Below, one piece after another: positions 35,765 to 61,656 of a DNA stretch of 64,000 bases; the first letter of the stretch is position 1, and each line of letters starts with the position of its first letter. This DNA is from Natronosalvus caseinilyticus. GTDB lineage: Archaea > Halobacteriota > Halobacteria > Halobacteriales > Natrialbaceae. Under the pieces are notes generated by a model. That model worked only from the letters and a program-made list of their open reading frames with translations. It was not told the DNA's origin and did no database searches. The stretch is from positions 62,001-126,000 of the forward strand of contig NZ_CP100395.1 in NCBI RefSeq assembly GCF_017357105.1, in the 5' to 3' direction. Made by a program: the position numbers and the translations under genes.

Positions 35765-36743
35765 GGCCCTGTTTAGACGCCTGAATTCATCGGGTTGAAT
35801 CCTCGATGGCGCGTTCGATGTTTCGAACCGCGGATTTCATGACCAGTTCGCGGAATTTACCGAACCGGGTTCGCGACCAGGGCGTCTCGCCGTAGCGACG
35901 ACGCAGCTCGAAAAACACCGATTCAGAGTTCGAACGTAGGTGATACACCCGATCATAGATGAGTACATCTCTCGCCCATCCCCGCATCCCGGGAGCTCGC
36001 TGCGGAATCAACGGTGTGACACCTTCCGAACGCAACTTCGTGCGAAGATTCTCCCAGTCGTAGCCTTTATCAGCAGCGACAGCCGTTAACTCGTCGAGAT
36101 TCCGCACCAGCACTTGCCACCCGATCTGTGTATCGTGCGGTTGTTTCATCGAGCAGTGTCTATCGAGAATCGCACTGGTCTCACAATCAATGAGCACCGA
36201 CGTTTTCACCGCTTCAAACGTATACTCCGTCCGCTTGGCGTAATGCTGGCTGGCCTGGACGTGATCAACATCGGTTGCGTCGATCGCCTGGACATCACCA
36301 AGATCATACAATTCAATAGAAGAATCAAGAATTGCTCGCCACCGCTTCATCGGGATCTCTTGTTTTCGCGTACACACCGTCGAGAAGTGTGGGACCGTTT
36401 CAGGCGTCAAACCCAATGATTTCGTCACTCTCGGCATCTCTTTGAGCACATCCAGCAGCTTCCTATAGACCTGTCCGAGATACTCTTTCAGCCCCTGAAC
36501 GGCCAGAACTACCCAGTCAGCGTACCCGTCCTTGCCCGATCGATAGGCTGGGCCGGGATCGCCAGCGACGGCTTTTTGAGCAAGCGATACGACTGTCTCC
36601 GTGAAGCGAGCTATCTTGGTTTGCACACCGAATACATCCCGCTTTACTTCCTAGTAGATTTGGTATTTCCTTGGAGCTACTAGCACGCCGATACTAGATC
36701 CAGAGGCGCCACGCTTCCTGAAGCCGACCGTCTAAACAAGGCC
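35765..36743 (-). mobile_element. IS5-family insertion sequence (about 979 bp)
   Basis: Terminal inverted repeats GGCCCTGTTTAGACG (35765-35779) and, on the other strand, GGCCTTGTTTAGACG (36729-36743) enclose one transposase. The same ends bound the larger element 59539-61490. The flanks AGCCTCTG and GAGTGACA do not match, so the target duplication has been lost or the element was rearranged. Confidence 0.85.
35787..36626 (-). CDS. IS5-family transposase
   Basis: A 279-residue DDE transposase: first Asp in GDVQAIDATDVDHVQAS, second in ELTAVAADKGYDWENLR, Glu in SNSESVFFELRRRYGETPW. The signature DKGYD and the C-terminal FGKFRELVMKSAVRNIERAI are intact. The stop is 22 bp from the left terminal repeat. 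It appears complete, and is a paralogue of 60524-61417. Confidence 0.92.
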   Translation of the reverse strand: MQTKIARFTETVVSLAQKAVAGDPGPAYRSGKDGYADWVVLAVQGLKEYLGQVYRKLLDVLKEMPRVTKSLGLTPETVPHFSTVCTRKQEIPMKRWRAILDSSIELYDLGDVQAIDATDVDHVQASQHYAKRTEYTFEAVKTSVLIDCETSAILDRHCSMKQPHDTQIGWQVLVRNLDELTAVAADKGYDWENLRTKLRSEGVTPLIPQRAPGMRGWARDVLIYDRVYHLRSNSESVFFELRRRYGETPWSRTRFGKFRELVMKSAVRNIERAIEDSTR

Positions 36744-59271: not shown

Positions 59272-59550
59272 ATGGATACACCTCAGTTGTCCCGCCGGCA
59301 TATCATCGGAACTGTGGCTCTTTCAGCTCTTGCGGGCTGTACAGCCTCCAGCTCCGAATCCGAAATCCAAATCGGGAACATTATGATCGGTAACTGGCGA
59401 GATGATCCGGTCACTATTACGCTCCGTCTTGATCGAGAGGGAATTACAGTCTTTGAAGAGGCTATCGAGATCGATGGTGATGGGGAAAACCTCATCGAGC
59501 AGTCATGGGATGCTGACCCCGGTGAGTATACTATTATGGGCCTCGTTTAG
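59272..59550 (+). pseudogene. Tat lipoprotein gene, 5' part, split by a transposon
   Basis: MDTPQLSRRHIIGTVALSAL then lipobox ALAGC, then IGNWRDDPVTITLRLDREG and EQSWDADPGEYTIM, where the element at 59539 begins; the last codons (GLV) come from the transposon end. Removing 59539-61490 and one CTATTATG copy joins this frame directly to YSTETEGRIYNLSLPEDVES at 61499 and on to TGA at 61654. The intact product would be about 144 residues. Confidence 0.85.
59531..59538. repeat. Target-site duplication CTATTATG (left)
   Basis: Identical to 61491-61498; flanks the inner element 59539-61490. Confidence 0.9.
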
Positions 59551-59740
59551 ACGTAGATATACAGTAGAACGAGGCTGCTCCCCTCACTCTTTAGATCAAA
59601 TTCGGAATAAAACACTCGGTCAGTTGGGCGTGTAAATCTATCGCTGAGATCGTGGACACTTTCGATAGGTGGCTCAGAACGACAATAGCCACAGGATTAG
59701 GGACGCACCATTATGAAGACGGATTACGTCTTGTAAAAAC

Positions 59741-60472
59741 ATGGGTATAACTAGCCATGGGTCGGATATGCTTGAAGAGAATGGCGTGGTTGGACTGTTT
59801 GCAGCATATCAACTTGAACGGCCTCAAACAGCCGACGATGATGTCGAGATCTCCACTGAAGAAGTTTGCAACATCCTTGAAGATAGCAATAGGCCAGAAG
59901 AAGTGCTCGTTGATACGTATCTAATGAGTGAGCTTACCCCCGGAGTGGACTACCTTGTCCGTATCCATGCGCACGACTTGACCACTGCTCAGGAAGTCCT
60001 CCGAGAGTTTCAGGCCACATCGTTTGGACGGTACTCGAAACTCATCGATGTGCTTACTGGGATTATCCGGGATGCCGTCTACCTCCCGCAAACACCTGAT
60101 CTCGATGCAATCGAAAAGGCAGCGACCTTCGAAGGAACGGAACCGCCGGACTACGCGATCATCATCCCTGTGGATAAAAACGCCGCATGGTGGAATCTTC
60201 CCGAATCTGACCGCATTGAAAAAATGCGAGATCACATCGAAGTGGCGCTCCCCTACCTCGATCGTATCCGCCGTCAGCTCTACCATTCCAGCGGTCTCAC
60301 CGATTACGAGTACATTACCTATTTCGAGACGAATGACCTCGGCGCGTTTATCGATCTCTACCGAGACTTGGAATCAATCCCCGAATACCACTACGTTACC
60401 GACGGCGATCCTACGTTGATCGGTCGTATCGAATCGTCTGAAACTATTGTCACCAAGCTTCTCCAAACTTAA
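59741..60472 (+). CDS. Chlorite dismutase/HemQ-family heme protein, transposon cargo
   Basis: 243 residues; Met at 59768 is an alternative start. Family landmarks: VVGLFAAYQLERPQ, YLMSELTPGVDYLVRIHAHD, a YPxxK-like IIIPVDKNAAWWNLPESDRI, then MRDHIEVALPYLDRIRRQLY and LTDYEYITYFETNDLGAFID, ending HYVTDGDPTLIGRI. The His in MRDHIE sits where the proximal heme ligand is expected, though alignment is needed. Haloarchaeal relatives act in heme handling; true chlorite degradation is not implied. No ABM domain is fused. Converges on the transposase gene with 51 bp between stops. Confidence 0.85.
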   Translation: MGITSHGSDMLEENGVVGLFAAYQLERPQTADDDVEISTEEVCNILEDSNRPEEVLVDTYLMSELTPGVDYLVRIHAHDLTTAQEVLREFQATSFGRYSKLIDVLTGIIRDAVYLPQTPDLDAIEKAATFEGTEPPDYAIIIPVDKNAAWWNLPESDRIEKMRDHIEVALPYLDRIRRQLYHSSGLTDYEYITYFETNDLGAFIDLYRDLESIPEYHYVTDGDPTLIGRIESSETIVTKLLQT

Positions 60473-60523
60473 AATATTTTATATCTTCACACACACTTTG
60501 ACGAATAGTAGGTAGATTGGCGG

Positions 60524-61417
60524 CTAGTGTAGTATGTTCTTCCCCAGTATTGACCAATATGAACGGATCACACGCGAGAAGCGTGTCTTGAAGCAGATAG
60601 CAATCTCGATGTTTCGGACAGCGGATTTTAACACAATTTCGCGGAACTGACCGAACCACGTTCGTGCCCGGAGCGTATCGCCATAACGCTGTTTGAGAGC
60701 GAAAAAGATCGCCTCGACCGCAGACCGCCGATGATAGGCATTATCATCTTGGCGAACGTTATGAGCTACATCTAATGGCGTAAATTCACGATGCTTGATC
60801 ACAGGGCGAACATCCGCCTCCCGTAGGCGGTGACGAAGGGCGTCCCAGTCGTAGCCTTTGTCGGCAGTGACCGTCTGAAGCTGGTCGAGATTCCGTGTGA
60901 GTACTTGGCATCCGACTTGCGTGTCGTGCGGTTGCTGCATCGAGCAGTGGACATCCAACACGGCACCGGTCTCACAATCGACTAACGCAGTCGTCTTCAC
61001 CGATCTGAAGGTGTAGTCCGTCTGGTTCGCGTAGTGGCGGCTGGCCGAGTGTCGGTCGAGGCCGGTTGCGTCGATAGCCTGTACCTCACCGGTGTCGTGA
61101 AGATCAGCGGAGAGTCGGAGGAGCGTTCGCCAGACAGCCATCTTAAGTTCCCGCTTCCGAACGCACACGGTCGTGAAGTCCGGAAGTTCGCTGATTTTGA
61201 GGCCCATCTTCTCGACGATTCCGTGCATCTCGTGAAGAATATCGAGTAGTCGTCGGTACGGAAGGTCGAGGTATTCACGGAGGCCATGGAGGACGATAAC
61301 CACCCAGCCAGCGTATCCGCCGTCACCCTTCTTGACTGCCGTATCAGGAACGCCCGAAACAGCGCGTTTCGCCAACGTAACAAGACGATCAGTGAAACGT
61401 GAGAGATGGGAGGACAC
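60524..61417 (-). CDS. IS5-family transposase (paralogue with altered C-terminus)
   Basis: 297 residues. DDE residues: TGEVQAIDATGLDRHSASRH, QTVTADKGYDWDALRHRLRE, RSAVEAIFFALKQRYGDTLR. It matches 35787-36626 up to KSAVRNIEIAI, then continues for about 20 extra residues (CFKTRFSRVIRSYWSILGK) not present in the sister, where cargo DNA joins. The catalytic domain looks intact, so the element may be active. Confidence 0.9.
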   Translation of the reverse strand: MSSHLSRFTDRLVTLAKRAVSGVPDTAVKKGDGGYAGWVVIVLHGLREYLDLPYRRLLDILHEMHGIVEKMGLKISELPDFTTVCVRKRELKMAVWRTLLRLSADLHDTGEVQAIDATGLDRHSASRHYANQTDYTFRSVKTTALVDCETGAVLDVHCSMQQPHDTQVGCQVLTRNLDQLQTVTADKGYDWDALRHRLREADVRPVIKHREFTPLDVAHNVRQDDNAYHRRSAVEAIFFALKQRYGDTLRARTWFGQFREIVLKSAVRNIEIAICFKTRFSRVIRSYWSILGKNILH

Positions 61418-61490
61418 ACTGCTTGTTTCTGCCTTTGACGTGGATTAGTTTACCGGAATTAGTGCCTCTTTCCGGCGTCTAAACAAGGCC

Positions 61491-61656
61491 CTATTATGTA
61501 TTCGACGGAGACGGAAGGACGAATCTACAATTTGTCTCTTCCAGAAGATGTGGAAAGTGCAAATGGAGACTGTATCGACATTCAGATTCACTGCCGAGCA
61601 GACCTGACTGATATCGTTTTCAGAGACGATAGCCCACCGTGGGGCAAATGTTGAAG
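61491..61656 (+). pseudogene. Tat lipoprotein gene, 3' part
   Basis: Starts with the duplicated CTATTATG and continues in frame as YSTETEGRIYNLSLPEDVES, CIDIQIHCRADLTDIVFRDD and SPPWGKC to TGA. It has no start signals of its own (an ATG inside the TSD could initiate a short product). It is the missing second half of 59272-59538. Confidence 0.85.

Follow-up and report, generated by a model that had tools for sequence, protein, structure and literature searches.

The 64,000-nucleotide stretch of DNA analysed here (the window) contains an IS5-family element of 1952 bp (59539-61490) in which a transposase gene and a chlorite dismutase gene (cld) share one pair of inverted repeats. We consider it very likely that this element is a transporter IS and that it belongs to a clade with a fixed slot in which passengers have been replaced several times. 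A transporter IS (tIS) is an IS derivative with passenger genes within its own ends (PMC9330008).

The boundaries of the element are well defined. Its 15-bp left inverted repeat GGCCTCGTTTAGACG (59539-59553, + strand), which has one mismatch relative to the clade consensus GGCCTTGTTTAGACG, is complementary at 14 of 15 positions to the right inverted repeat CGTCTAAACAAGGCC (61476-61490, - strand). Directly outside the repeats, the 8-bp target sequence CTATTATG is duplicated without mismatch (59531-59538 and 61491-61498). The element interrupts a lipoprotein gene, of which the 5' part occupies 59272-59538 (+) and the 3' part 61499-61654 (+), with the duplication copy counted once. When the element and one duplication copy are removed, these parts form a single open frame of ~140 codons. 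An intact paralogue on the same 230-kb replicon of the host genome (G000:C2:16430-16849) reads GTGAGTATACTATTATGTATTCGACGGAG uninterrupted across the target, and it is 97% identical in DNA sequence over 519 bp to the interrupted gene and its flanks after the same removal. This locus is a paralogous empty site and not the ancestral one. Short lipoprotein-like genes lie in a row around it (L231, G000:C2:14500-18500). The 1952-bp unit itself occurs once in the host genome.

The first-pass annotation had proposed recent transposition of a cargo-bearing IS5-family element, citing a perfect duplication within a split lipoprotein gene, a frame restored on excision, and ends shared with a 979-bp IS at 35765. 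All three observations held up, the second also agreeing with the uninterrupted paralogue. Transposition of the cargo-bearing element is further supported by its exact ends, the empty paralogue, and the existence of two additional full-length copies (described below), and the undamaged target halves are consistent with a recent event.

The transposase gene (60524-61417, -) encodes an IS5-family DDE transposase of 297 aa in the window copy, which scored 221 bits against NF033579 (cut-off 140) and matched DDE_Tnp_1 at 4e-20. The 15-bp repeats and the target duplication (8 bp here, 9 bp in most relatives) are also those of an IS5-family element. Among the elements compared, the nearest named ones were ISHtu1 and ISNma1 (loci L029 and L035). 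These share the transposase model, the DDE domain, similar ends, and 8-9-bp duplications, but unlike the window element they are 934 bp long and cargo-free. The 979-bp IS (35765-36743, -) is likewise a cargo-free cousin, with a transposase 53% identical to that of the window element. No target duplication was found at this copy, which may therefore have been rearranged after insertion. Close relatives of the window transposase were not found in viral contigs. The transposase gene is convergent with cld (59741-60472, +), and its C-terminus had been thought to be altered where the cargo joins. Comparison with the sister copies led us to discard this idea. At the position of the ancestral stop codon, 60593-60595 (-), both sister copies, whose transposases have 274 residues, read TGA and the window copy reads TGC. 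Loss of this stop accounts for the 23-residue C-terminal extension of the window transposase, ruling out the cargo joint as the source of the changed terminus.

A search for other copies of the unit yielded two close relatives at unrelated sites. Genome G302, from another genus of the same family, and genome G225, from another family, each contain a 1950-bp element with both genes and the same ends, 88.4% and 88.8% identical to the window element, respectively. The same joint between cld and the transposase gene is present in all three copies, and the left subterminal region together with the cld leader (59554-59740, +) is >90% conserved. The G302 element is flanked by the 9-bp duplication CTTGACATC and lies just past an RNase-HI-like gene, with no lipoprotein gene at the site; no target duplication was found at the G225 copy. 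The three sites, as read from the assemblies, establish independent insertions of one enclosed unit. Between G302 and G225 the elements are 98.5% identical, compared with 83.7% for the rpoB region. A difference of 1.5% in the element against 16% in the rpoB region indicates recent passage of the element between families. In the comparison of the window with G302, divergence is about equal in the element (88.4% identity) and the rpoB region (87.8%), so that pair alone does not show transfer. For the same pair, dN/dS was about 0.16 (NG86) or 0.28 (YN00) for Cld and 0.16 (NG86) or 0.24 (YN00) for the transposase, as expected for genes under selection. Like the passenger of a transporter IS, cld has no role in transposition and is found within a single pair of ends, here in three genomes. 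Three observations support joint movement of passenger and element: the unrelated insertion sites, the duplications at two of the three copies, and an identity between families that exceeds that of a core gene. The cld and transposase genes thus appear to travel together as one unit.

Could cld instead have been resident, with an ordinary IS landing beside it, so that the unit is an accident of neighbourhood? Free-standing haloarchaeal cld genes exist and two of them adjoin transposase genes, but the repeats and target duplication in the window surround both genes, the target gene is continuous in a paralogue that lacks both, and the joint recurs in G302 and G225. These observations make a resident cld extremely improbable. 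The element is also not a composite transposon, since its cargo is not flanked by two IS copies; a single transposase gene and a single pair of ends are present.

Chlorite dismutases convert chlorite to chloride and oxygen. The passenger, a protein of 243 aa with no visible signal peptide, matches Chlor_dismutase at 4e-29, and among solved structures it is closest to chlorite dismutases (best E 3.6e-46, over residues 10-239). Residues W150, H165, R178, and E215 share alignment columns with Cld heme-pocket and catalytic residues, and H165, R178, and E215 are aligned in six sequences. By analogy with Azospira Cld, we take these three to be the proximal histidine, the distal arginine, and a proximal-pocket glutamate. 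The passenger is thus predicted to be a true lineage-1-type chlorite dismutase with conserved catalytic residues, which is more precise than the membership of the chlorite-dismutase family assigned in the first-pass annotation. The passenger might instead be a coproheme decarboxylase of the HemQ type or some other heme protein, since the Pfam superfamily is the same and a HemQ model is matched weakly. However, the passenger scores 68 bits against HemQ_actino (cut-off 235), its best solved relatives are chlorite dismutases, and it has residues aligned with the distal arginine and proximal histidine of Cld, making this assignment very unlikely.

Because no leader precedes the Cld domain, we infer a cytoplasmic location, and the enzyme is presumably active and would protect the cytoplasm against chlorite. 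Some basal lineage-1 Cld proteins have been reported to be non-periplasmic (PMC9751292). A respiratory role in the host was rejected because no candidate nitrate, chlorate, or perchlorate reductase was found in the host genome; the sole PF00384 protein there is a molybdopterin oxidoreductase of 698 aa that appears, by eye, formate-dehydrogenase-like. Cld has been reported in organisms without such reductases (PMC9751292). The likeliest role suggested by the gene content is protection against chlorite that originates outside the cell or from oxidative chemistry. Scans of genome_contigs and viral_contigs returned no close relatives of the Cld protein. Free-standing haloarchaeal cld genes might have been expected beside heme genes, but inspection of their neighbourhoods by eye revealed no heme genes; one nicotinate phosphoribosyltransferase-like gene was seen, in addition to the two cases adjoining transposase genes. 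Other cld genes, ~52% identical, have transposase genes within ~2 kb in G118, G297, and Halomarina sp. PSR21 (L045, L046, and L056), and cld may therefore use other vehicles too.

Related transposases and their surroundings were gathered, ends and duplications were located by script, and a clean tree was built from 75 transposases that we picked after inspection. Every one of the 18 clean members of the clade that includes the window element has additional DNA at one and the same location, bounded by the left end and the 3' end of the transposase gene. A branch with support of 100/97, recovered in 99% of the bootstrap trees, separates these 18 from all 57 cargo-free elements. Cargo-free elements are mostly 933-980 bp long, and nearly always ~40 bp separates the end of the transposase gene from the end of the element, compared with 319-1396 bp in the cargo clade. 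This longer distance of 319-1396 bp is seen in elements with a transposase at least about 73% identical to that of the window element. Perfect 8-9-bp duplications flank at least 11 of the cargo elements; several others, beside the G225 copy, have none. An earlier quick tree of 97 rows gave the same picture except for mis-paired elements. L073, L083, and L084, candidate cargo elements outside the clade, lacked target duplications and were judged to be end mis-pairings; these three and the internally deleted L213 were not included in the clean tree. The sample of the clade amounts to about 20 elements and spans many haloarchaeal genera. The generalization that IS5-family elements rarely carry cargo is therefore untrue for this clade.

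At least 10 different cargoes occupy the slot, on either strand. In addition to Cld, found in three genomes representing three genera and two families, they include a HAD-phosphatase/NUDIX fusion of 415 aa (Natrialba aegyptia, Natrialba taiwanensis, Natrinema zhouii, and G459), a 225-aa protein (Haloprofundus salinisoli), lipoprotein-like proteins of 169 aa (Halostella pelagica and Salinibaculum litoreum) and 153 aa (Haloprofundus halobius), and a 131-aa membrane protein (Haloglomus irregulare, Halorubrum sp. CSM-61, G236, and G007). The others found so far are membrane proteins of 161 aa and 54 aa, a protein of 139 aa, and a zinc-ribbon protein of 70 aa (Haladaptatus salinisoli); the last type has a broken transposase and was therefore not placed in the clean tree. 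For the two shortest passengers, of 54 aa and 70 aa, the reading frames are putative genes. One 131-aa-type element of 2148 bp (L203, G236:C9) has in its slot an additional gene (217 aa) that resembles a transposase of a different kind, and this locus is one mobile element nested within another.

The borders of the slot were compared between passenger types. Elements carrying the HAD-NUDIX and 225-aa genes are 89% identical over the left 76 bp and 88% identical over the transposase segment, and no similarity was detectable between their slot contents. Similarly, the 70-aa and 161-aa elements share 82% identity over 74 bp of the left end and 86% over the transposase segment, and their slot contents are unrelated. 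At the level of sequence, these pairs document unrelated contents between matching borders within a single clade. Across all pairs, which are not independent, left-end identity tracks transposase identity (Spearman 0.53). The Cld, 131-aa, 139-aa, and 169-aa types have left subterminal sequences that are little alike past the 15-bp repeat. Given shared borders in some pairs and dissimilar left ends in four types, slot replacement and capture with a new left end are both possible. An inner-border inverted repeat (CTCAGT / GGTCAGT) was considered as an exchange site and rejected, as it performed no better than shuffled sequence.

These comparisons bear on two further explanations. According to one, a lone IS5 element took up a neighbouring cld by chance, and the event has no wider meaning. 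According to the tree, each cargo type was apparently gained a single time (9 changes for 10 states), as such a capture would have it, but the cld unit is found in three genera and two families, and nine other passengers occupy the same slot in sister elements; we regard a one-off capture as very improbable. According to the other, diversity arose when a new left repeat, from a solo end or miniature element, was used past a neighbouring gene, so that gene and left end were taken together. The four types with dissimilar left ends are in keeping with this route, as is the existence of miniature elements of ~141 and 230 bp with the same 15-bp ends. The two pairs whose left ends match over 74-76 bp (82-89% identity) around unrelated slots argue against it, and as a general account we find it possible but not probable. 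Part of the cargo diversity may nonetheless represent new left ends and not fixed-slot swaps. Under the favoured explanation, a transporter IS with a replaceable passenger, the transposase would move cld and itself jointly within the single pair of inverted repeats, and insertion into the lipoprotein gene duplicated 8 bp. Passengers would be exchanged in the slot, from the left end to the transposase 3' end, while the ends and transposase are kept, with new passengers presumably entering the slot by one of the routes discussed above.

The passengers also have relatives outside the clade. Free-standing homologues lacking clade ends or transposase were found for all three cargoes tested (Cld, HAD-NUDIX, and the 131-aa protein); free-standing Cld genes are 41-64% identical and HAD-NUDIX genes 66-78% identical. 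Full-length genes for HAD-NUDIX (92%) and the 131-aa protein (76%) are found in Haloarcula hispanica and Haloferax larsenii next to a single left repeat and a transposase remnant. These decayed copies suggest that a passenger, once delivered, can persist after its vehicle has degenerated. A stronger proposal, that the clade is a dedicated system of gene capture and delivery in which passengers are exchanged, genes stay after the transposase decays, and haloarchaea gain a steady source of new genes, appears doubtful to us.

Passenger-carrying IS elements are usually catalogued as isolated oddities. ISKpn21, ISKpn65, and ISRel10, for instance, are single tIS cases in the IS1202 family (PMC10132070). 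The window element resembles them in that its passenger is enclosed by the element's own pair of ends, but where the described tIS are single cases, here a whole transposase clade carries many passengers in one slot. Mobile DNA bearing cld is also known, from chlorate-reduction composite transposons such as those of Ideonella and of an Alicycliphilus plasmid (PMC7349173, PMC9751292). Those structures hold clr genes between IS copies, whereas the window element has a single transposase, lacks a reductase gene, and encodes a Cld with no signal peptide. Transporter IS elements and cld on composite transposons are thus established; for an IS5 clade with passengers throughout we found no report, in a literature search from which subscription papers were largely absent. 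The clade offers a compact, testable system for cargo gain and exchange by a minimal transposon, and it suggests a simple route by which genes could spread among haloarchaea. The patchy distribution of cld has been noted without a vehicle of this kind as its explanation (PMC9751292), and elements of the window type would offer a specific route by which chlorite dismutase could spread.

Mobile insertion cassettes and MITEs have the same ends; the window element, by contrast, retains its own transposase. One unit in G162 (L209, G162:C2:3541-4663) has the two ends and only a transposase remnant, and it carries a methyltransferase gene to which the final portion of the 131-aa passenger is fused; it is a cassette without its own transposase. 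Pairs of ends lie ~141 bp apart at G446:C27:46868-47008, G257:C45:152397-152537, G459:C4:150188-150328, and G065:C2:912936-913076, and ~230 bp apart at G001:C2:87959-88188 and G093:C1:1813805-1814034. These are probably MITEs of the same end type, distributed over several haloarchaeal families.
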